Positions 1 through 14,522 of a stretch of DNA of 64,000 bases are shown here, in pieces. The stretch lies in assembly GCF_014202315.1 (NCBI RefSeq), contig NZ_JACHGN010000008.1:167342-231341 (forward strand), in the 5' to 3' direction. This DNA comes from Thermocatellispora tengchongensis. Lineage in GTDB: Bacteria; Actinomycetota; Actinomycetes; Streptosporangiales; Streptosporangiaceae. Position numbers and translations under genes: made by a program. Numbering within the stretch: the first letter of the stretch is position 1; each line of letters opens with the position of its first letter. The notes below the pieces were generated by a model, which saw only the letters and a program-made list of their open reading frames with translations, searched no databases and was not told the origin of the DNA.

Positions 1-676
1 GTTCTTCCACGAGCTGGTCGGCCACCCGATGGAGGCCGACGTGCTGCGCTCGGGCACCGGCTACCTCGCCCCGCTGGCCGGGCGGCGCGTCGCCCCCGAG
101 TGGCTGTCCGTCGTGGACGGCGCCACCCGGGCCGCGGCCGGATACCGCGCCGCCTTCGACGACGAGGGCACCCCCTGCTCGGAGGTCGCCCTGATCGACC
201 GGGGCGTGGTCGGCCGCCCCATGACCGACCTCGCCACCGCCCGCCTGACGGGACAGGCCCCCACCGGGCACGGCCGCCGCCTGGACTACCGCCACCCGGC
301 CATCCCGCGCATGACGCACACCTGCGCGCTGGCCGACGCCACCGCCGAGCCCGCCCCCCACGAGTGGATCGAGCCCTGCGGCCTGCTGCTGGAGTCGATG
401 AACCTGGCCACGGGGGCCTTCGCCTTCCTCGCCCCCGCCCCGCTGCTGCGCCGCCAGGACGGCCCGCCGCTGCGCCTGCCGCCCCTGCGCATCGCGGGCG
501 ACGCGCTGCGCGTGCTGGCCGCGCTCAGCCCGTCCGACCCCGGCGTGGCCGAGTACGCCCGCGCCCGGCGGGGCTGCGGCAAGCTCGGCCAGTTCCCGCT
601 GCTGGTGACCTTCGCCAACTCCGGGGTCCGGCTGCCCGCGCACGCGGTCTCGATCGAGGCGGTCCCCGATGCGTGA
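1..676 (+). CDS. TldD-family zinc metalloprotease, C-terminal part (5' end outside window)
   Basis: The reading frame is open from base 2, so the gene begins upstream of the window. It opens with HELVGH followed by MEAD, the HExxGH zinc motif of the TldD/PmbA (U62) peptidases. Family hallmarks follow: DDEGTP, APTGHGRR, PRMTHT, and a C-terminal GCGKLGQFP resembling the usual GxCGKxGQ. TldD is the catalytic subunit of a TldD/TldE heterodimer that threads and cleaves unfolded peptides, for example in microcin B17 maturation. The stop overlaps the next gene by 8 bases, so the two are translationally coupled. The nearby LanB-like gene suggests it matures or releases a peptide product (inference). 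Family assignment is firm; substrate unknown. Confidence 0.88.
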   Translation, partial: FFHELVGHPMEADVLRSGTGYLAPLAGRRVAPEWLSVVDGATRAAAGYRAAFDDEGTPCSEVALIDRGVVGRPMTDLATARLTGQAPTGHGRRLDYRHPAIPRMTHTCALADATAEPAPHEWIEPCGLLLESMNLATGAFAFLAPAPLLRRQDGPPLRLPPLRIAGDALRVLAALSPSDPGVAEYARARRGCGKLGQFPLLVTFANSGVRLPAHAVSIEAVPDA

Positions 677-1736
677 GGCCGTGGACGACCTCGTCGTACG
701 GGCGCGCGGCACCCTCACGCCCGGACCCGGCACGCCCGGGGTGAGGCTGTCGGCCGAGGCGCTGGCCATGAGCCGCGACGACACGGGCGCGATCCGCGGG
801 TCCCGCCGCCTGCCCGGCGGCCCGCCGCCCGGCCACGGCGCGCCCGCCGCGGTGCGCGCGCTGCTCGACCGCGCGGCGCGGGCCCTGGCGGCGACGCCGT
901 TGCAGAGCGTGCTCGCCGAGGTGCGCGAGCTGCCCGCGCTGCGCTGGCGCTGGGCCCGGGTCCTCGCCCGCGTGGAGACCCCCTCCGGCCCGATGCTCAC
1001 CGGCGTGTCCGCCCCCTCGGCGGCCGGCGCCGCCCTGCCGGACCTGGACGGTCGCCTCCTCCTGCCGCCGTGCGAGCCCCCAGGGCCTCCGCCGCCCGGC
1101 TGGGAGGCCCTGCCGCTGCTGCTCCGCCCCGCCGTCGCCGCGGCGGTGGTGGCCGGCACGAGCCTGGTGCTGACCTCCCCGGCCGCCCGCTCCCGGCACG
1201 GCCGCCGGGTGCTGCCCGCGCTCACCCTCACCGACCTGCCCACCGCGCACCCCGAACCGGCCCGCGACGACGCCGCGCGCCCGGCGTCCGCGATCCCCCT
1301 GGTGGCCGGCGGCGTGCTGTGCCCGCCGCCCCGGGAGCCCGCCACCGGCGCGCTGCCCGGCCGGGCCGTGTGGGACCACGACCTGGGCGCCCTCGTCCCG
1401 GCCCCGCTCGCCCGGGTGCGCCTGTCCGGCCTCGCCGCCGTCCCGGAGCCGGACGGCGGGTTCGCCGAGCTGGTCTGGCCGGTGGAGGGCCTGCGCCGCT
1501 ACCACCCCGGCGGCGGCGTGCGGCTGATCTGCCTGGCCCGGGTGGCGCACCGTCCGCGCGAGTGGTTCGCCGTACGCGTGCGCGCCCGCCCGCAGGCGCT
1601 CCTGCGCGCCGTCTCGGGCGCGGCCGGCGAGCCCGTCACGGCGTGCGCCGACGCCGACGTAACGACCCCCTCACTGCTGTTGCCGAGCGCCCGCGAACTC
1701 GCGGCGGAAGGGAAGGGCACCATTGCAGCGCTATGA
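669..1736 (+). CDS. Divergent TldE/PmbA-like partner of the upstream TldD
   Basis: This 355-residue protein starts at an ATG overlapping the stop of the TldD gene (ATGCGTGA), the arrangement seen for TldD/TldE pairs. It has no HExxH motif, as expected for the non-catalytic TldE subunit. A segment around residues 175-185 (RVLPALTLTDLP) resembles the short strand preceding the domain junction in TldE. Overall similarity is weak and the protein is rich in Ala, Pro and Arg, so the call rests partly on position, length and coupling. The alternative is an unrelated protein specific to this peptide pathway. Its end overlaps the following oxidoreductase gene by 14 bases. Confidence 0.55.
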   Translation: MREAVDDLVVRARGTLTPGPGTPGVRLSAEALAMSRDDTGAIRGSRRLPGGPPPGHGAPAAVRALLDRAARALAATPLQSVLAEVRELPALRWRWARVLARVETPSGPMLTGVSAPSAAGAALPDLDGRLLLPPCEPPGPPPPGWEALPLLLRPAVAAAVVAGTSLVLTSPAARSRHGRRVLPALTLTDLPTAHPEPARDDAARPASAIPLVAGGVLCPPPREPATGALPGRAVWDHDLGALVPAPLARVRLSGLAAVPEPDGGFAELVWPVEGLRRYHPGGGVRLICLARVAHRPREWFAVRVRARPQALLRAVSGAAGEPVTACADADVTTPSLLLPSARELAAEGKGTIAAL

Positions 1737-2874
1737 CTTCGTCCTGGTCGGGGGCGGCATCGTCGGCGCCTGCCTGGCCGAGGAACTGGCCGGCACGGGC
1801 GCGTCGGTGGCCGTGCTCGACGCGGGCGACGAGGCCGGGCACGCCAGCGTGCGGGCCGCCGGGGTGGCGGTGCCGTCGCTGCGCTACGTCACCGACCTGG
1901 AGTTCTACCGCTGGCTGCAACGGGCCCGGCTGCGCCTGGACACCGACATCGAGCGGCTGGAGCCGCGCTATGGGGCCTTCAGCCTGACCCGGCCCATCCT
2001 GCGGATGCTGCGCCTGGCCGAGGTGCACCAGTACGCCGCCGCGCTGGAGGCCGCGGGCGTCACCGGCTGGCTGGACCCGGGCGCCCTCGCCGGCGACCTC
2101 GCCCGCGGCCTGGCCGACGGGCTCGCGCAGGGCCTGACCGCGGGGCTGCGCCTGTCGTACGAGCGCCGCCGCTTCCTGTACGACGAGAACGGCCTCATGG
2201 TGGACGGTGCCCGCTACCTCGCCGCCGTGCGCCGGCGCTGCCTGGACCTGGGCGTGGCGTGGCGGCAGCGTACGACGGTGCTGGAGGTGGGCGACGGCGC
2301 GGCGCTGGTCACCTCCGCGGGCACGGTGCGGGCCGACCGCACCGTGATCACCGCCGGCGCCTGGTCCGGCACCGCCGGGCTCGCCGGCAAGGGCGTGCCG
2401 GTGTACCCGCAACGCGGCCAGCTCGTCACGATCGCGAGCGAGGAGACACTGCCGTTGATCTTCTCCTCGATCTGCTACCTCGCCCCCGGCGTGGACGGCG
2501 AGATCATCGCGGGGGCGACCGAGGAGGACGCCGGCTTCGACGACCGGTGCGACGTCTCCGGCATCACCCGGCTGCTGCGCTTCGCCGCGGCCACGATGCC
2601 CTCGTTGCTCTCGGCCACCCCGACCGCGCTGCGCTCCGGACTGCGGCCCGTGTCGGCGACCGGCCGCCCGCTGATCGGCCGCGTCCCCGGAGAGGCCGGG
2701 CGCGGCGGCCGGCTCTGGGTGGCCTCCGGGCACGCCGGCCACGGGCTGATCTCGGCCCGGCTCACCGCCGAGAGCGTGGCCGCGGCCCTGACCACCGGCA
2801 CCTGGTTCGACCTGCCCGCGAGCATGTGCCCGAGCCGGGCGGCGGAGGCGAGGGCATGCGCATCGACCACGTGA
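1723..2874 (+). CDS. FAD-dependent oxidoreductase, D-amino-acid/glycine oxidase (DAO) family
   Basis: The 383-residue protein starts with the Rossmann motif GGGIVG (residues 10-15), then LDAGDEAG at the end of the second strand where FAD ribose is bound. A DAO-type C-terminal segment carries SGLRPVSATGRPLIG and ASGHAGHG. Such enzymes oxidise amines or amino acids to imines with O2. The chosen start is a TTG at 1723 with a GGAAGGG ribosome site just upstream; it begins inside the end of the TldE-like gene. Together with the LanB-like gene, FMN reductase and VOC protein it probably tailors a peptide- or amino-acid-derived product (inference). The family call is strong; the substrate is not. Confidence 0.8.
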   Translation: MQRYDFVLVGGGIVGACLAEELAGTGASVAVLDAGDEAGHASVRAAGVAVPSLRYVTDLEFYRWLQRARLRLDTDIERLEPRYGAFSLTRPILRMLRLAEVHQYAAALEAAGVTGWLDPGALAGDLARGLADGLAQGLTAGLRLSYERRRFLYDENGLMVDGARYLAAVRRRCLDLGVAWRQRTTVLEVGDGAALVTSAGTVRADRTVITAGAWSGTAGLAGKGVPVYPQRGQLVTIASEETLPLIFSSICYLAPGVDGEIIAGATEEDAGFDDRCDVSGITRLLRFAAATMPSLLSATPTALRSGLRPVSATGRPLIGRVPGEAGRGGRLWVASGHAGHGLISARLTAESVAAALTTGTWFDLPASMCPSRAAEARACASTT

Positions 2875-3533
2875 CCATCGGCGCCCGCGACGTCGGGCAG
2901 GCCCGTGAGCTGCTGTGGGACCGCTACGGGTTCGGCCTGGCCGAGGGCGGCCCGCTGCACGACGGGACCGCCAACTGGGTGGTGCCGTTCGACACGCCGG
3001 ACGTGCAGTACCTGGAGGTCGTCGTGCCCCGCGACGAGGACGCCATGGCCGCCGCCGGCATCCGCGACGGCTTCATGGAGCGCACCGCCGCGGGCCCCGC
3101 CTTCCTGACCTGGGCCGTGCTGGTCGAGGGCATCGAGGAGGCGGCGCGGCGCGTCGCCGGGCTGCTGGGCGAGGACCCCGGCCTGCTCCGCGGCGAGTCG
3201 GTACGCCCCGGCGGCCTGCGCCTGCCCTGGGCCGAGGCGGCGTACACGGCCTCGTGGCGGAAGCCCGCGCGCCCGTTCTTCCTGGAGTACGGCGCCTGGC
3301 CGCTGCGCCGCGCCCGAGTCCCCCGCGACCTGGCCGCGGCCCGGCACCGGACCACCCCCTCGGCGATCTCCGCCCTCGTCGTCGGCACCGGCGGCACCGC
3401 ACCCGCCGACCTGGACGCCTGGCTCGGGGGCGCCGACCTCCCGGTCCTCACCGAGCCGGACGCGCCGTGCGGGGTGCGCGAGGTCGTGGTCGAGACCCAC
3501 GGCGGCGGCCGGATCGCGGTGAGGCTGCCGTGA
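2856..3533 (+). CDS. VOC-superfamily (glyoxalase-like) protein
   Basis: The 225-residue protein begins MRIDHVTIGARDV, the typical first strand of a vicinal-oxygen-chelate module with its metal-binding His at position 4. It continues with the paired beta-alpha-beta-beta-beta layout of the glyoxalase-3-like group (about residues 1-150), including FDTPDVQYLEVV with a possible metal ligand Glu. The ATG at 2856 follows GGCGGAGGCG and overlaps the end of the oxidoreductase gene by 19 bases, so it belongs to the same operon. VOC proteins act as isomerases, dioxygenases or binding proteins; the reaction here cannot be told from sequence. Confidence 0.7.
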   Translation: MRIDHVTIGARDVGQARELLWDRYGFGLAEGGPLHDGTANWVVPFDTPDVQYLEVVVPRDEDAMAAAGIRDGFMERTAAGPAFLTWAVLVEGIEEAARRVAGLLGEDPGLLRGESVRPGGLRLPWAEAAYTASWRKPARPFFLEYGAWPLRRARVPRDLAAARHRTTPSAISALVVGTGGTAPADLDAWLGGADLPVLTEPDAPCGVREVVVETHGGGRIAVRLP

Positions 3534-3569
3534 GGCGTACCAGAACGCACGACAGGAGCAGGTGACGTC

Positions 3570-4263
3570 ATGAGCCCGGTCCCCGCAGTGGTCCTCCTCA
3601 GCGGATCGCTCAACCCCGACTCCAGATCCGAACGCGTGGCGGCGTGGTGCCGACCAGTGCGCCCGCCACGGCGCCACCACCCGCCTGTTCCGCGGCGCCG
3701 ACCTGACGTTCCCGCACTACCACCCGTCCGGCGAGCACGCCGATCCCCGGGTCCGCGAGTACCTGGAGGCCCTGGAGCGCGCCGACGGCGTCGTCCTGGT
3801 CTCGCCCGCCTACCACGGCACCGTCTCCGGCCTGCTCAAGAACGCCCTCGACTACGTCAACGACCTCGCCGCCCCGCAACGCCCCCTCCTGGACGGCCGT
3901 GCCGTGGGCTGCGTCGCGGTCGCCCGCGGCGACCAGGGCGCCACCACCACCCTGGCCACCCTGCGCACCGTCGCCCACGCCCTGCGCGGCTGGCCCACCC
4001 CGCTCGGGATCGCCCTGTCCGGCGAGTCCGCCCGCTTCGCCGACCCACCCCACACCGCCACCATCCCCGCCGCCGCCCCCACCCCCGCCCCCGCCCGCGC
4101 CCCCATCCCCGATCCCCTCCCCGCTGGCGCCCCCATCCCCGATCCCGTCCCCGTCCCCGGGCACGAGCGCGCCCGCGCGCAGACGTGCGTGATGCTGGGC
4201 CAGGTGATCTTCCTGGCCCGCATCGTCGCCCGAAAACGAGCCGCCGAGTTGCAGCGCGCCTGA
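3570..4263 (+). pseudogene. NADPH-dependent FMN reductase, frameshifted near 3650
   Basis: The first 27 residues (starting MSPVPAVVLLSGSLNPDSRS) carry the phosphate-loop start of the flavodoxin-like FMN reductases (GSLNPxSRS). The frame then runs into arginine- and proline-rich nonsense. From about 3650 the coding sequence resumes in the +1 frame with SPAYHGTVSGLLKNALDY, the SPxYxGxxSGxLKNxLD family motif, and continues to the stop at 4261-4263. The junction around WCRP versus ADQC fits loss of two bases (GC) or gain of one, so no single open frame encodes the enzyme. The C-terminal third has a Pro-rich insertion encoded by two 20-base direct repeats at 4097-4116 and 4127-4146. It may be a real mutation or a sequencing error. 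Confidence 0.75.
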
Positions 4264-4312
4264 CCGGCACCCGCCCCACCCCCTCCTCCACACACCGTTG
4301 CGGAAGGAACCC

Positions 4313-6955
4313 ATGCGAATCGCAGAACCCACCCCCACCCCACAGGACACCACCCCCGCTCCCGGGACCCCGCGCACCATGCGCGGGGTCCGGGAGGGCG
4401 GCGACGAGCCGGAGGAGGGCGGCGCGCTCGCGTGGCGGGTGGCGGCGGGCGGCGGAGAGCTGGCCGTGGAACTGTTCCCCTGGTTCCTGCTGCGCACCAC
4501 CGGGATGCCGGTGCGGTTGCTGGACGGGCTGGCGGGGGAAGAGGCGGGGCGGCTCACCGATCGGGTGCTCGCGGCCGAGCGCGACATCGACGACGCGCGG
4601 CGGGCGTTCGAGGCGAACGCGCGGGCCATGCGCGAGGCGGTGGTGCGCATGGAGCCGGTACGCCGCTCGCGCAAGATCGCCCGGCACTGCCTGCGCGCCG
4701 TGCGCGAGGGCGTCCCGCTGGGGGAGGAGGAGATCGGGCTGCTGGCGCAGCTCGGGCAGGCGGAGTGGGTGGCCCGCTGGGAGATCGCGGTCGCCGCCGC
4801 CCGCGAGGCGTACGGCCACGCCGCCCGCGCCCACGCCAGGGCCCTCGCCGCCGCGCGCAGGCGGGTCGCCGAGGCGTACGACGACGACGCGGTGCGGCAC
4901 GCCGTGTTCGTCTCCAACCCCGGCTTCCACCGGGCCGCCGGCGACGGGCCGCTCCCGCGCGAGGAGGACGCCGGCGCCGACCGGCGGTCCCGGCTGCTCA
5001 TCGCCACCGTCCACCGCTACCTGCGCCGCTTCGCCACCCGCTGCGAGACCGTCTCGTTCTTCGGCCCCACCCTGCACGCCCGTCTCGACCCCGGCGAGCC
5101 CGCCGCGCTCCTCGTCGGCGAGCCGGGGCCGGAGCGGGTGGTCGTCGAGGCCAGCGCGTGGCTGGCCGACCACCTCCAGGACGTGCTGAAACGGGCCGCC
5201 GCCCCGGCCGGTCTGCGCGTGTGGCGCAGCCCCGTCTTCCGCGAGCCGCCCCCGGAGCAGGGACCCGCCCCGGGCCTGGAGCGCACCCTGGACGGCAGGC
5301 GGGTGCGGGTGCCCGAGCCCGCGCTGCGGCTGTGGCGGGCGGCCGACGGCCGGCGCACGCTCGGCGAACTGGCCCGGGAGCTGGGCCTGCCGGTCGAGGA
5401 GGCCGTCGCGCTCGCCCGCGCGCTCGGCCCCGCCGTGATCATCTCCTGGCACCGGCTCCCCGCCACCGAGCTGCGGCCCCTCACCGCCCTGTCCCGCGCG
5501 GTCCGCGGCGACACCACGTCCGGTGGCGTGTCCGGCGGGGTGTCCGTGGGCGCATCCGGGGGCGTCTCCGGGGGCGCTTCGGGCGGCGCGGCGGCGGGCG
5601 CGGCCGGTGCGGCGCTGGCCGCGCTGTCGGAGCTGCGCTCCCGGTACGAGAGCGCCCCCTGGCCCGTCCGCGCGGCCCACTTCGAGGCGGCGCAGGCGGT
5701 GGTCGCCGGGCTCGGCGCCCAGCCGAGACAGGGGGCCGGGCGGCACTACGCCGACCGCGAGATCTTCCACGAGGACCGGTCCAGCCCCTACAGCGAGCGG
5801 GTCACCATCGGCGGGGCCGCGCTCGCCCGGCTCCGGGACGCGCTGTCGTCGGTGCTGCCGGTCTGCGCGCTGGCCGCGCTGCTGGCCCGGCAGGACGCCC
5901 GCGACGCGCTCCGCGCCGAGCTGGCCGGACGCGCCGCGCCGCTGGCCCGGCTCGCGGTGGCGAACCTGCGCGCCGACTCCCCCCGGCTGCGGGCCCTCAC
6001 CTCCCTCCTGCGCGACCTCGTGGCCGCCCACGCCGACGGCGCCGCCCCCGGCGCCCGCCAGACCGTACGCCTCAGCGGCCGTGACGTGTCGCTCGCGACC
6101 GCCCCGCTGTGGGCCGCGCTCGCCGAGGAGCCCGCCCCGCCGGACGACATCGACGCCTGCCTGCCCAGCCCCGACATGATGGCCGTGGGCCCCGACCTGG
6201 CGACCGCCACGTGGCTGCTGTCGGAGCTGCACGACGACTGCGGCTCCATCTACGGCGGGCTGGCCGGGCGGCTGCACTCCGACCCCGACGGCCTGTGGCG
6301 GGGCTTCCTCGCCCGCGCGGGCCGGTACGTCCCGCCCGCCGGCGTCGCCACGGTCGTCTCGCGGCGGCGCAACGCCCACGTCACCCCGGAGCTGCCCGGC
6401 CTGTCCATCGAGCTCAGCGGCCTGTCGGGCAAGCCGCGCGGGCAGACCGCGCCCATCGCCGACGCCGTGGTGCCGCCCACGGCCGACGCGGTGGAGGTCG
6501 CCGGGCGGCGCTACCGGCTCTACCCGGGCGACGTGGCCGCGTCCCCGCTGCACCGCGCGCTGTCGCTGCCGGCGCTCGTGCCCGTGCCGGTGGACCTGGG
6601 CGCCCACACTCCCCGGATCATGATCGACGACATGATCTACCAGCGCGAGCGGTGGCGGGTGCGCCTGCCGGAGGAACGCGCCGAGGACCCCTTCGAGCGC
6701 TGGCTGCGGCTGCACCGGCTCAAGGAGGCCCACGGCCTGCCGCGGCACGTCTTCGTCCGCCACCCCGCCGAGGCCAAGCCCTTCCACGTGGACTTCCTCG
6801 ACCCACTCGCCGTGGAGGACCTGGCCCGGCTCGACCCCGCCGAGGTGCTGGTCACCGAGATGCTGCCCACCCCCGGGGAGCTGTGGTGGCGTCCCGGGGG
6901 CGAGCCGCAGTGCGCCGAACTGCGCCTCGGCTGCTTCCTGCGCATGGTGCGCTGA
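4313..6955 (+). CDS. LanB-like tRNA-dependent enzyme (lantibiotic dehydratase N-domain only; possible PEARL)
   Basis: This 880-residue protein resembles the glutamylation domain of class I lanthipeptide dehydratases. A helix with VHRYLRRFATRCETVSFFGP (about residues 225-250) matches the conserved KYLRR...SFFGP region. It ends LVTEMLPTPGELWW where that domain normally ends. No SpaB_C elimination domain follows, and none lies nearby. Stand-alone proteins of this shape are either the first half of split dehydratases or peptide aminoacyl-tRNA ligases (PEARLs), which add an amino acid to a scaffold peptide from aminoacyl-tRNA. The ATG at 4313 is preferred over TTG 4298 because GGAAGGA lies 5 bases upstream of it. 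A Gly/Ser/Ala-rich linker sits near residues 400-430. No precursor peptide is visible in the window. Confidence 0.8.
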   Translation: MRIAEPTPTPQDTTPAPGTPRTMRGVREGGDEPEEGGALAWRVAAGGGELAVELFPWFLLRTTGMPVRLLDGLAGEEAGRLTDRVLAAERDIDDARRAFEANARAMREAVVRMEPVRRSRKIARHCLRAVREGVPLGEEEIGLLAQLGQAEWVARWEIAVAAAREAYGHAARAHARALAAARRRVAEAYDDDAVRHAVFVSNPGFHRAAGDGPLPREEDAGADRRSRLLIATVHRYLRRFATRCETVSFFGPTLHARLDPGEPAALLVGEPGPERVVVEASAWLADHLQDVLKRAAAPAGLRVWRSPVFREPPPEQGPAPGLERTLDGRRVRVPEPALRLWRAADGRRTLGELARELGLPVEEAVALARALGPAVIISWHRLPATELRPLTALSRAVRGDTTSGGVSGGVSVGASGGVSGGASGGAAAGAAGAALAALSELRSRYESAPWPVRAAHFEAAQAVVAGLGAQPRQGAGRHYADREIFHEDRSSPYSERVTIGGAALARLRDALSSVLPVCALAALLARQDARDALRAELAGRAAPLARLAVANLRADSPRLRALTSLLRDLVAAHADGAAPGARQTVRLSGRDVSLATAPLWAALAEEPAPPDDIDACLPSPDMMAVGPDLATATWLLSELHDDCGSIYGGLAGRLHSDPDGLWRGFLARAGRYVPPAGVATVVSRRRNAHVTPELPGLSIELSGLSGKPRGQTAPIADAVVPPTADAVEVAGRRYRLYPGDVAASPLHRALSLPALVPVPVDLGAHTPRIMIDDMIYQRERWRVRLPEERAEDPFERWLRLHRLKEAHGLPRHVFVRHPAEAKPFHVDFLDPLAVEDLARLDPAEVLVTEMLPTPGELWWRPGGEPQCAELRLGCFLRMVR

Positions 6956-8751: not shown

Positions 8752-10311
8752 ATGAGCACCACAACGCTCGCCGGGACGCCGGCGCAGGCGCCCGCGCGGG
8801 CGGGACGGCGGGAGTGGGTCGGGCTGGCCGTGCTGGCGCTGCCCACCCTGCTGGTCTCCATCGACGTGTTCGTGATGCTGCTGGCGCTGCCGTACCTGAG
8901 CGCGGACCTGGGCGCGAGCGCGACCCAGCAGCTCTGGATAACCGACATATACGGATTCATGCTGGCCGGCTTCCTGGTCACCATGGGCGGCCTCGGCGAC
9001 CGCATCGGGCGGCGCCGGCTGCTGCTGATCGGCGCGGCGGCGTTCGGGATCGCCTCGGTGCTGGCCGCGTACTCGGTCAGCGCCGGGATGCTGATCGCGG
9101 CGCGGGCGCTGCTGGGCGTGGCGGGCGCGACGCTGGCGCCGTCCACGCTGGCGCTGATCGGGAACATGTTCCGCGACCCGAGGCAGCGCGGGCTGGCGAT
9201 CGGGGTGTGGATGACGTGCTTCATGGGCGGCGCGGCCATCGGCCCGGTCGTCGGCGGGGCGATGCTGGCGAGCTTCTGGTGGGGCTCGGCGTTCCTGCTC
9301 GGCGTGCCCGCCATGGTGCTGCTGCTCGTGCTCGGCCCGGTGCTGCTGCCGGAGTACCGCGGCGGCGAGGGCGGGCTCGACCTGACCAGCGTGGCGCTCT
9401 CGCTGGCCGCGATCCTGCCCGTCGTGTACGGCCTGAAGGAGCTGGCCAAGGGCGGCTGGGCGCCGGTGCCCCTCGCGGCCCTCGGGGTGGGCGCGGCCGT
9501 CGCCGCCGTCTTCGTACGCCGCCAGCGCCGCCTGGCCGATCCGCTGCTGGACCTGCGCCTGTTCCGCGACGGCGCGTTCAGCACCGCCCTGGGCAGCATG
9601 ATGTTCGGCACCATGCTGATGGGCGCGATGATGCTGTTCATCACCCAGCAGCTCCAGCTCGTGCACGGGCTCTCCCCGCTGTCGGCCGGGCTGTGGATGA
9701 TGCCCGCGGTCGCCACCAACGCGATCAGCTTCCTCTGCTCGCCGCTGCTGGCCCGCCGGTTCCGTCCGGCGTACCTCATCGGCGGCGGGCTCGCGCTCTC
9801 GGTGACCGGCCTGCTGCTGATGACCCAGGTGGACGCGGTGTCCGGCCCGGTGACGCTGGTGACCGGGTTCGCGATCGTCAACCTCGGCGCGGGCCCCCTG
9901 GTCACGCTGAGCATGGACCTGGTGATCGGGTCGGCCCCGCCGAGCCGCGCGGGCTCCGCCGCCGCGCTGAACGAGACCTTCGCGGAGTTCGGCTTCGCCT
10001 TCGGCATCGCCGCGCTGGGCAGCATCGGCACCGCCGTCTACCGCGCGCACGTCGAGACGGCCCTGCCGGCCGGCCTGCCGGAATCCGCCGTCCAGGCCGC
10101 CCGCGACACGCTCATCGGCGCCACCGCCGCCGCCCGCGACCTCCCCGGCACCCTGGCGGCGGCCCTGCTCGGCCCGGCCAGGGACGCCTACACCAGCGGC
10201 CTGCACACGGTGGCCGGCATCAGCGCCGCCCTGCTCGCCGTCGTGGCCGTGCTCGCCACGGTCCTGCTCCGGCACGTGCGGCCCACCGGCGCCCGTCAGG
10301 AACACGGCTGA
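8752..10311 (+). CDS. MFS drug exporter, DHA2 (EmrB/QacA-like) family
   Basis: The 519-residue protein shows the DHA2 layout of about 14 hydrophobic segments. Motif A ([13 protein letters not shown]) lies between helices 2 and 3, and a motif C-like GAxxGPxxGG (AAIGPVVGG) in helix 5. The first helix carries the family signature LLVSIDVFVMLLALP. Such pumps export cationic drugs or antibiotics with proton antiport. The ATG at 8752 has AAGGAG about 10 bases upstream, inside the hairpin described above. The convergent TetR gene downstream is a candidate regulator, although its visible operator lies elsewhere. A second DHA2 exporter lies at 59547-61031. Confidence 0.88.
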   Translation: MSTTTLAGTPAQAPARAGRREWVGLAVLALPTLLVSIDVFVMLLALPYLSADLGASATQQLWITDIYGFMLAGFLVTMGGLGDRIGRRRLLLIGAAAFGIASVLAAYSVSAGMLIAARALLGVAGATLAPSTLALIGNMFRDPRQRGLAIGVWMTCFMGGAAIGPVVGGAMLASFWWGSAFLLGVPAMVLLLVLGPVLLPEYRGGEGGLDLTSVALSLAAILPVVYGLKELAKGGWAPVPLAALGVGAAVAAVFVRRQRRLADPLLDLRLFRDGAFSTALGSMMFGTMLMGAMMLFITQQLQLVHGLSPLSAGLWMMPAVATNAISFLCSPLLARRFRPAYLIGGGLALSVTGLLLMTQVDAVSGPVTLVTGFAIVNLGAGPLVTLSMDLVIGSAPPSRAGSAAALNETFAEFGFAFGIAALGSIGTAVYRAHVETALPAGLPESAVQAARDTLIGATAAARDLPGTLAAALLGPARDAYTSGLHTVAGISAALLAVVAVLATVLLRHVRPTGARQEHG

Positions 10312-10381: not shown

Positions 10382-10422
10382 AGGCTTCCGGGCTCGTCCG
10401 GCTCAGGAGGCTTCCGGGCTCG
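10382..10422. repeat. Short direct repeats between convergent genes
   Basis: AGGCTTCCGGGCTCG occurs at 10382-10396 and again at 10408-10422. A related GGAGGCTTCGGGG lies near 10328. The second copy includes the last codons of the TetR gene. It may reflect local slippage; no terminator stem was found here. Confidence 0.5.
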
Positions 10423-10969
10423 CGAGCGCGCGCAGGCTCGGGCGGAGCAGCCGGGCGATCTCCTCCTGGGGGACGGCGCGGAGTTCGTCGAGCTCCAGCA
10501 GTTGGTGGCCGACCGTGACACCCAGCATGATCACGGTCATCAGCGCGGCGCGCAGGCGGGCATCCTCGCCCGGGATGGACTCGGCCAGGCGGTCGATCTG
10601 CCGGCCCAGGACCTCGCGGGCCGAGGCGGCGGCCTCGGGGTGGGTGAGCATGGAACGCATCATGGCCAGCGACCCCTGGGGCAGGTCGCCGATCTTCCGG
10701 TCCAGGGTGCCGAGCAGGTGCTCGACCAGTTCGTCCGCGTCCAGGCCCGCCTCGGGCGGCGGGGCCACCTGCGCGGCCCGCCTGAAGAGCTCCTGCTTGC
10801 TGCCGAAGTACTGCATGACCAGGGCGGGATCGACCTCGGCGGTGCGGGCGACGGCCCTGATCGTGGTGCGCTCGAACCCCACCTCCGCGAAGAGCGCCCT
10901 GGCCGCGTCGAGAATCCTCCGCTCGGTCCTGCGCCGCCGCTCGGCCCGGGGAAGCGGTGTGTCGCTCAC
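10403..10969 (-). CDS. TetR/AcrR-family transcriptional regulator
   Basis: The 188-residue protein has an N-terminal TetR helix-turn-helix (about residues 14-58), with ILDAARALFAEVGFERTTIR then AEVDPALVMQYFGSKQELF. The VMQYFGSK recognition-helix end is typical of the actinobacterial group with a TetR_C-type ligand domain. The GTG start at 10969 has GGAG 5 bases upstream. Divergent from it is the SnoaL-like gene, with palindromic CGTTGA elements between, so it probably represses itself and that gene. Control of the convergent exporter is possible but not shown by sequence. Confidence 0.88.
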   Translation of the reverse strand: MSDTPLPRAERRRRTERRILDAARALFAEVGFERTTIRAVARTAEVDPALVMQYFGSKQELFRRAAQVAPPPEAGLDADELVEHLLGTLDRKIGDLPQGSLAMMRSMLTHPEAAASAREVLGRQIDRLAESIPGEDARLRAALMTVIMLGVTVGHQLLELDELRAVPQEEIARLLRPSLRALASPEAS

Positions 10970-12541: not shown

Positions 12542-12643
12542 TTGACTTCGGGAGGTTCGGTTGAGAACCTTCTCTCGATCCGGTGAGAACGTTCTACATC
12601 GCTCTCGCCGTGACAGTGAGAACGTTCTACTTCTGGAGTGCGC
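12542..12643 (+). promoter_or_regulatory. Promoter with three phased LacI-type operators of the sugar-conjugate operon
   Basis: AGAACGTTCT, a perfect palindrome with the central CG typical of LacI operators, occurs at 12586-12595 and 12619-12628. A weaker GAGAACCTTCTC lies at 12563-12574. Centres are 22 and 33 bases apart, close to two and three helical turns, so dimers would sit on one face of the DNA. A possible -35 box TTGACT is at 12542-12547. The ribosome site TGGAG (12634-12638) is 5 bases before the ATG at 12644. The probable ligand is the LacI protein at 21337-22431. Confidence 0.72.
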
Positions 12644-13672
12644 ATGACTGAGAAGCTTCCGTTGCGGCCCGTCGATCCGCGGATCGGTGAGGTCATCGGC
12701 GGGGCGGTGAACCAGCGGGGCGTCGCCGAGAAGGTGGCGGCCGCGGCGGCCGGCCGAGGGGTGACGGATGTGTTCTTCCTGGGGTGCGGCGGGTCGTGGG
12801 CCTCCTCGGTGCCGGCGCACGTCACGCTGTCGGCGCACGCGTCCGGGCTGATCAGCCACAACCTGAACGCGGCCGAGTTCCTGGCGGCGCCCTCGCCGCG
12901 GCTGTCGGAGCGCTCGCTGGTGGTCGCGTCCTCGCACTCGGGCAACACGCCCGAGACGGTGGCCGCGGCGCGGCTGGCGAAGGAGGCGGGGGCGTACGTG
13001 GTGTCGGTGGCGACCGACGCCGACAACGCGCTGGGGGAGCTGGGCGACGTGACGCTCACCTACGGCAGCGAGCGCACGATCACCTCGGCCAAGCACGTGC
13101 TGCTCGGCCAGCTCGCGCAGGAGCTGCTGCGCCTCGACGGCGCCGCGCTCGACTTCGAGGCCGTGCGCCGCGGCTACGAGGCGCTGCCGGACGTGCTCGC
13201 GCGGGTCACCGAGGAGCACGAGGAGACCGCCGCGCGGATCGCCCGCGAGATCGGCGAGGCCGACATGACGTACGTCGTCGGCGGCGGCGCCTCCTACGGC
13301 CTGGCCTTCCTGATGTCGGTCTGCTACCTGACCGAGATGCAGTGGAAGAAGTCCGCCTACGTCTCCACCGGCGACTTCTTCCACGGCGCGTTCGAGATGG
13401 TCGTGGACGACGCCCCGGTGATCCTGTTCCGCGGCGAGGACGCCTCGCGCGCGATGGCCGACCGGGTGTGGGCGTTCCTGCCGCGGTTCACCTCGCGGGC
13501 GTACGCGCTCGACTCGGCCGCCTTCGAGCTGCCCGGCGTGCCCGCCGCCGCGCGCGGGGAGGTGTCGGCGCCGGTGCTGGCCACGCTCACCACCCGCCTG
13601 GCCGACCACTACGAGTCCGTCACGGGCCACTCCCTCGACGAGCGCCGTTACATGCACAAGATGGCCTACTGA
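12644..13672 (+). CDS. SIS-domain sugar-phosphate deglycase/isomerase (FrlB-like)
   Basis: The 342-residue protein has tandem SIS domains with FLGCGGSWASS and SSHSGNTPETV (the SxSGxTxET phosphosugar loop). Later GDFFHGAFEMV and a C-terminal ERRYMHKMAY resemble FrlB, fructoselysine-6-phosphate deglycase, more than glucosamine-6-phosphate synthase. No glutaminase domain is present. With the adjacent FrlD-like kinase the predicted role is to split a phosphorylated Amadori compound into glucose 6-phosphate and an amine or amino acid. The ATG at 12644 is chosen over GTG 12638 by ribosome-site spacing. It is the first gene of an operon running to 21163 and the target of the operators just upstream. 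Confidence 0.75.
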   Translation: MTEKLPLRPVDPRIGEVIGGAVNQRGVAEKVAAAAAGRGVTDVFFLGCGGSWASSVPAHVTLSAHASGLISHNLNAAEFLAAPSPRLSERSLVVASSHSGNTPETVAAARLAKEAGAYVVSVATDADNALGELGDVTLTYGSERTITSAKHVLLGQLAQELLRLDGAALDFEAVRRGYEALPDVLARVTEEHEETAARIAREIGEADMTYVVGGGASYGLAFLMSVCYLTEMQWKKSAYVSTGDFFHGAFEMVVDDAPVILFRGEDASRAMADRVWAFLPRFTSRAYALDSAAFELPGVPAAARGEVSAPVLATLTTRLADHYESVTGHSLDERRYMHKMAY

Positions 13673-13673
13673 G

Positions 13674-14522
13674 ATGCGGCTGTGCGGCGTCGGCGACAAC
13701 GTCGTCGACAGATACCCCGACCTCGGCGTGGTCTATCCGGGCGGCAGCGCGTGCAACGTGGCCGTGCACGCCGGGCGGCTGGGCGCGCGGGCCGGCTATC
13801 TCGGCTCGATCGGGCGCGACGCCCCCGGCGACCTGATCCGGCACTGCCTGGCCAGCGAGGGCGTCGACATCCGGTGGGCGAGGTACGGCGACCACCCCAC
13901 CGCCTGGGCCGACATCAAGCTGGACGCCCAGGGCAACCGGACCTTCACCGACTACCGGGCCTACACCGAGGAGCTGCGGCTGCGGCCGGCGGACCTGGAC
14001 TACCTGGCCTCGTTCGACCTGGCGCACAGCGGCCACACCAGCCTGGTCGAGCGCCAGCTCGCCGAGATCGCCCGGGTCACGCGGGTGTCGTTCGACTTCT
14101 CCTACAAGGACATGTCGTACGCCCGCCCGCTGCTGCCGTCGGTCGGGATCGCGTTCTTCTCCCGCCCGGCGCTGGACCGGGAGGGGTGCGAGGGCCTGGC
14201 CGCCGAGGCGCTGGCCCTCGGCCCCCGCCAGGTGGTCGTGACCTGCGGCGACAGGGGAGCGCTGCTGGCCACGCCGGAGCATAGAGTGTGGCAACCGGCC
14301 GTCTCGACCACCGTCGTGGACACGCTGGGCGCGGGCGACGCCTTCGCCGCCCAGTTACTGGTGGCGCTGCACGCGGGCGCGGCCCCCGAGATCGCGATGG
14401 CGCGCGCCGCCGCGTACGCCGCCGCCGTGTGCCGCCACCCCGGCGGCTACGGCTACCCCGCCGACCTGGCCGCGCTGTACGAGGACCCGATGCCCCCGCC
14501 CACGCAGGAGGAGACCACATGA
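13674..14522 (+). CDS. PfkB-family sugar kinase (FrlD-like, fructosamine 6-kinase)
   Basis: The 282-residue protein starts GDNVVDRYPDLGVVYPGGSACNVAV, close to FrlD (GDNxVDxYP...GGxAxNVAV). It carries the PfkB C-terminal signature VVDTLGAGDAFAAQ, with the catalytic Asp in GAGD. SFDFSYKDMSY in the middle matches the FDFS region of FrlD. Expected reaction: ATP-dependent 6-phosphorylation of a fructosamine before cleavage by the SIS protein. It begins 1 base after the previous stop and its own stop overlaps the next ATG, so it is tightly coupled. It is short of a firm call only because the exact substrate may differ. Confidence 0.78.
   Translation: MRLCGVGDNVVDRYPDLGVVYPGGSACNVAVHAGRLGARAGYLGSIGRDAPGDLIRHCLASEGVDIRWARYGDHPTAWADIKLDAQGNRTFTDYRAYTEELRLRPADLDYLASFDLAHSGHTSLVERQLAEIARVTRVSFDFSYKDMSYARPLLPSVGIAFFSRPALDREGCEGLAAEALALGPRQVVVTCGDRGALLATPEHRVWQPAVSTTVVDTLGAGDAFAAQLLVALHAGAAPEIAMARAAAYAAAVCRHPGGYGYPADLAALYEDPMPPPTQEETT

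Follow-up and report, generated by a model that had tools for sequence, protein, structure and literature searches.

The 64,000-nucleotide stretch of Thermocatellispora tengchongensis DNA analysed here (the window) comprises bases 167342-231341 of contig C8, a contig of an 11.65 Mb draft genome. Its first ~7 kb belong to an operon of 12 co-directional genes on the + strand, mostly with overlapping stops and starts, whose gene kinds are those of the ammosamide (amm) cluster, a system based on a scaffold peptide and peptide aminoacyl-tRNA ligases (PEARLs). The window edge splits this operon and leaves only its last five and a half genes inside, and the remainder occupies 11 kb upstream on C8. 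The 32 kb upstream of the window on C8 was also read (L009, L010), and its overlap with the window was identical. C8 positions equal window positions plus 167341, L010 positions equal C8 positions minus 154999, and negative window numbers lie upstream. A first-pass annotation of the window had named a LanB-like protein, a TldD/TldE pair, an amine oxidase, a glyoxalase-like VOC (vicinal oxygen chelate) protein and an FMN reductase, and all of these genes are present, close-packed on the + strand. The operon reads as follows, with Amm names taken from the amm cluster.

C8:155694-156449, +, scaffold peptide (NF033737, E 1.4e-12)
C8:156446-158239, +, AmmC1-like tetratricopeptide repeat (TPR) protein, 597 residues (AmmC1 residues conserved)
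C8:158242-160851, +, LanB-1 (PF04738, 5e-17; no SpaB_C)
C8:160848-163121, +, LanB-2 (PF04738, 3.4e-18; no SpaB_C)
C8:163109-164542, +, Amm10-like protein, 477 residues (place in the operon)
C8:164539-166779, +, LanB-3 (PF04738, 2.2e-9; no SpaB_C)
C8:166776-168017 (window -565 to 676), +, TldD-like metalloprotease, Amm12-like (HELVGH; PF19289, 2.8e-25; solved TldD, 1.8e-22)
Window 669-1736, +, TldE-like partner, Amm13-like by position (orthology, 43-58% identity)
Window 1723-2874, +, glycine-oxidase-like FAD oxidoreductase, Amm14-like (PF01266, 1.4e-48; glycine oxidases in the PDB)
Window 2856-3533, +, glyoxalase-like VOC protein, Amm15-like (PF13468, 3.7e-21)
Window 3570-4263, +, NADPH-dependent FMN/quinone reductase, Amm17-like (PF03358, 1.5e-21; frame broken near 3650)
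Window about 4313-6955, +, LanB-4, AmmB4-like, about 880 residues (27.7 bits to PF04738; clade; follows the reductase)

Apart from the reductase, all frames of the operon are open (11 of 11), and in nearly all of them GC is distributed over the codon positions as expected of real genes.

Scaffold peptide and LanB-like proteins

The first-pass annotation expected a scaffold peptide gene upstream of the window, and one was found there, 10.9-11.6 kb before base 1. Its product scores above the curated cut-off for NCBIfam NF033737, the ammosamide/lymphostin leader family, and a search with this profile over 395 genomes of the class gave a match in this genome only. The peptide is acidic and has the C-terminus ...DLDFDLDEVENKIAPLALAVDEGIRP, while the published AmmA* scaffold has the C-terminus DLDDIEFDLDEVESKIAPLALA, after which Trp is attached (PMC9850906). 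The well preserved IAPLALA motif is shared, but the peptide encoded here terminates in LALAVDEGIRP. Of six relatives, five have scaffolds with the exact IAPLALA C-terminus, and that of the sixth (G020) ends in LALAWAEASR. Those five scaffolds stop at LALA, the point where a PEARL would extend, which supports the PEARL reading of the operon. Counted from whichever start codon has the best ribosome-binding site, the scaffolds of the relatives have about 48-86 residues and this one ~251, a three- to fivefold greater length. The extra length comes from tandem repeats, many with an 18-base unit, at L010 827-1378 (C8:155826-156377).

LanB-1, LanB-2 and LanB-3 exceed the Pfam cut-off for PF04738 (Lant_dehydr_N). 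LanB-4 had no match in the per-protein scan, and its score is 0.3 bits under the cut-off of 28; because of this, its assignment is based on orthology and on the way it aligns with LanB-1, LanB-2 and LanB-3. None of the four proteins has a SpaB_C domain, in agreement with the earlier description of a LanB-like protein lacking the elimination domain. In BhaBC-Trp the residues that bind the CCA end are Arg197, Gln201, Tyr205 and Arg208. Judged by eye on an alignment of the four LanBs, putative equivalents of Tyr205 and Arg208 are present in all four, and LanB-2 and LanB-3 alone also have putative equivalents of Arg197 and Gln201.

LanBs of this kind could also belong to a lanthipeptide or thiopeptide cluster with split dehydratases, in which they would glutamylate Ser and Thr and a separate SpaB_C protein would carry out elimination. 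The only relevant solved relative found by profile is 6ec7 (E 3.2e-9), which we take to be TbtB, the enzyme that glutamylates in a thiopeptide dehydratase of the split kind. However, a search of the genome for SpaB_C found none on C8 and placed this domain only on contigs C6, C35 and C41, and no lanthipeptide-type precursor was found; the presence of both upstream is what the first-pass annotation had named as speaking against a PEARL pathway. The precursor present belongs to the ammosamide/lymphostin scaffold family, its VDEGIRP tail has no Ser, Thr or Cys, and in no lanthipeptide family known to us do such LanBs occur together with a glycine oxidase and an AmmC1-like enzyme. The split-dehydratase explanation was rejected on the lack of a nearby SpaB_C and on the precursor family, and we regard it as very improbable.

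Clusters of the ordinary class I lanthipeptide type, or related ones, with LanBs near SpaB_C, do occur elsewhere in the genome, on C35 (39004-44017) and C6 (380690-385001). A tree of 42 LanBs was confined to those of this operon and its relatives and the two ordinary LanBs of this genome. No two LanBs of the operon share a clade; every one of them groups with orthologues from G020, G064 and a Kitasatospora plasmid, and LanB-4 also with the LanB-4 of G216. All four are set apart from the two ordinary LanBs of the genome. Clustering with ordinary dehydratases, which the first-pass annotation had named as a further point against its reading, is not seen, although the ordinary proteins have very long branches and are weakly placed, and the tree by itself does not prove PEARL function. 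By clade and position, LanB-4 is predicted to be the Arg-adding PEARL.

Flavoenzyme, protease and redox genes

The TPR protein is, judged from conserved residues, an AmmC1/BhaC1-like putative flavoenzyme, in which the three residues predicted to bind the substrate are spaced as published. AmmC1 has Lys350, Asn432 and Lys602, with spacings of 82 and 170, and these are predicted to hold the C-terminus and the indole of the substrate (PMC9850906). In the protein encoded here Lys334, Asn416 and Lys585 have spacings of 82 and 169 and are kept in at least 11 of 12 homologues. One genome, G048, has adjoining AmmC1-like and Amm10-like genes (contig C74, L036 10713-13868) where no LanB occurs in the 40 kb read or, above threshold, anywhere else in the genome; its C1 protein has Arg in place of the otherwise conserved Lys585. 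The pair may possibly act without a PEARL in that genome.

The TldD half of the protease pair is clear by sequence, with the HExxGH motif of the first-pass annotation present as HELVGH. Its partner, 43-58% identical to the same-position protein in six relatives, is named TldE because it directly follows TldD, as Amm13 does, and so the TldE part of that claim stands by place and orthology and not by a sequence match. The 'amine oxidase' is more exactly a glycine-oxidase-like protein of the DAO family, and the VOC protein belongs to PF13468, the family reported for Amm15. The FMN reductase is present as claimed, with an interrupted reading frame: compared with five orthologues, its first ~27 codons are in a different frame from the rest, a one-base frameshift that may be a sequencing error or a real mutation. 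This protein also has an additional Pro/Ala-rich stretch near its end.

Relatives and known clusters

An AmmC1-like gene was found in 12 of 347 genomes of the order, including this one, and all 12 belong to the same family; over 396 genomes of the phylum, the only match was in this genome. A contig search returned one named relative, Marinitenerispora sediminis, using a single AmmC1-like sequence as query where an alignment would be a better one. Orthologues of the operon genes occur in six other genomes in largely the same order, and because six genomes keep this order, chance association is ruled out.

The relatives show three patterns. G020 and G064 (M. sediminis TPS16, L044) encode the full set of four LanBs; in both, LanB-4 precedes the scaffold gene and is near genes for an M20 dipeptidase and a methyltransferase, and G020 has an additional halogenase-like gene after the reductase. 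These two share with the operon the four PEARLs, C1, the Amm10-like protein, TldD/E, glycine oxidase and the VOC protein at ~39-59% identity, while their scaffolds, at about 48-59 residues, are much shorter. Four genomes of genus g56 (G242, G253, G287 and G234; L024-L031) have LanB-2 and LanB-3 only and retain TldD, TldE, glycine oxidase, VOC protein and reductase, followed by a weakly similar methyltransferase. The g56 clusters are without LanB-4, so release without the Arg-adding enzyme would need a different route there. The third, more distant group (G216, G222 and G224) has its LanBs encoded on both strands; in G216 (L039/L038) a large polyketide-synthase-like frame lies ~12 kb past LanB-4 and might be part of the cluster, as in a hybrid of the lymphostin kind. 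The plasmid of Kitasatospora sp. NBC_00039 (NZ_CP108290.1, L045 19989-41770) encodes the TPR protein, TldD/E and seven LanB-like proteins, of which four carry only a hypothetical-protein annotation.

Among known systems, the closest comparison is the amm cluster of Streptomyces sp. CNR-698. In that cluster amm6 encodes the scaffold, amm8, 9, 11 and 18 are LanB-like (AmmB2 is Amm9), amm10 has no assigned role, amm12/13 are TldD/E, and amm14, amm15, amm16 and amm17 encode a glycine oxidase, a PF13468 protein, a PF02441 protein and a quinone reductase (PMC8210675, PMC12715798). Matching by order would make the other LanBs AmmB1, AmmB3 and AmmB4 and would place AmmC1 between amm6 and amm8. The order amm6-amm18 is reproduced here with amm16 alone missing. 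Both clusters have the scaffold motif, the AmmC1-like enzyme, four LanB-type PEARLs, the Amm10-like protein, TldD with its partner (TldE-like by place in the operon here), glycine oxidase, the PF13468 protein and the quinone reductase. They differ in that the operon described here has no homologue of the halogenase (amm3) or dipeptidase (amm19) nearby, a scaffold of ~251 residues with repeats and a frameshifted reductase. The likeness is one of gene kind and order.

The lymphostin and ammosester clusters, which share the scaffold family name, are homologous to amm; they lack amm15 and amm16, and the lymphostin cluster has amm10 (PMC12715798). Compared by this published description, the present operon differs from them in having an amm15 counterpart. 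The bha cluster of Bacillus halodurans C-125 has a scaffold ending in APLAL(A), BhaC1, the glycine oxidase BhaG, the reductase BhaH and PEARLs of the same kinds, while its PEARL set and specificities (Ala, Trp, Gly and Asn reported) differ; here the likeness is one of gene kinds.

Proposed pathway and product

The PEARL pathway raised by the first-pass annotation is supported by the scaffold family, the four LanBs without SpaB_C and the gene order, and we are highly confident that the operon is an ammosamide/lymphostin-type PEARL (pearlin) cluster. The suggestion that the pathway might be new was not supported, as the operon is nearly gene-for-gene of the ammosamide type, the steps of which have been assigned experimentally (PMC11117183, PMC12715798). 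The assayed steps are Trp addition by AmmB2, trihydroxylation by AmmC1, Gly addition by AmmB3, Gly oxidation by Amm14 or BhaG, supply of the second amine from Leu-tRNA via AmmB1, Arg addition by AmmB4, dipeptide release by Amm12/13 and its cleavage by the dipeptidase Amm19 (PMC11117183, PMC12715798).

From the gene content and order, scaffold motif, orthology and flavoenzyme residues described above, we infer the chemical steps, tRNA specificities and product as follows. The operon probably makes a small quinone from tryptophan, assembled at the terminus of a carrier peptide that can be used again. The scaffold would be trimmed to ...IAPLALA, LanB-2 would add Trp from Trp-tRNA, and the TPR flavoenzyme would hydroxylate the indole. 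LanB-3 would then transfer Gly, and LanB-1 Leu, from the respective tRNAs onto the quinone to supply nitrogen, with glycine oxidase stripping the glycine carbons and the quinone reductase adjusting the redox state. After LanB-4 added an Arg cap, TldD/E would release the modified Trp-Arg dipeptide and leave the scaffold free for reuse, and a dipeptidase encoded elsewhere may yield a non-chlorinated, ammosamaic-acid-like product. Such a compound or its Arg dipeptide is the likely product.

Several points weigh against this assignment. Seven residues (VDEGIRP) lie beyond LALA in the scaffold, so trimming would be needed before Trp could be added there, although amm itself may also need tail removal, since the published work used the variant AmmA*. 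The TldE-like protein had no convincing TldE/PmbA match (best value 0.073, for one homologue), the reductase is frameshifted, and the LanB assignments draw on position and on clades among relatives. Homologues of the G020 halogenase, M20 dipeptidase and methyltransferase were absent from C8:135000-194999. The genome has no clear Trp halogenase, only weak partial matches, so that chlorination is unlikely. In these respects the operon departs from an ammosamide cluster proper, the product of which is chlorinated.

The missing late genes, the one-base frameshift and the repeat-expanded scaffold with its altered tail would also fit a decayed ammosamide remnant that no longer makes a product. However, no other frame of the operon is broken, nearly all show gene-like codon-position GC, the scaffold has kept its motif well, and sequencing error may account for the frameshift. 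Other enzymes have also been suggested to be able to replace at least the oxidoreductase Amm16 (PMC12715798), and decay is considered quite unlikely.

The absence of an M20 gene bears as well on where a functional pathway would end. Although the operon encodes LanB-4, the region of C8 searched has no counterpart of the M20 gene next to LanB-4 in G020 and G064, and the modified Trp-Arg dipeptide could itself be the end product. On the other hand, two M20 proteins encoded elsewhere in the genome share 50% and 47% identity with the enzyme of the G020 cluster, and it is possible that they act on the dipeptide. M20 proteins of 50-51% identity also occur in G003 and G014, genomes without an AmmC1-like match, so the presence of an M20 protein is uninformative on a link to LanB-4 or to dipeptide cleavage. 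We consider an end at the dipeptide somewhat unlikely. We put forward only tentatively that the operon makes an untailored pearlin with a new product, either a diaminoquinone-Trp acid or the corresponding Arg dipeptide, on a scaffold that is expanded by repeats and needs its tail trimmed.

Beyond the operon, a drug-efflux-type major facilitator superfamily (MFS) transporter (QepA/LfrA-like, below cut-off) is encoded at window 8752-10311, 1.8 kb past the last gene, with a convergent TetR regulator at 10403-10969. This transporter could export the operon product. Further on, at window 12638-14522, a SIS-domain protein and a PfkB kinase resemble fructoselysine-6-phosphate deglycase and fructoselysine 6-kinase, with scores that stay under the equivalog cut-offs.

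The operon represents a core-only version of a pathway logic that was worked out recently, in which a peptide serves as a reusable workbench and aminoacyl-tRNAs serve as reagents. The relatives with two LanBs and those with four provide natural tests of whether TldD/E needs the Arg tag and of which PEARL gives which nitrogen.

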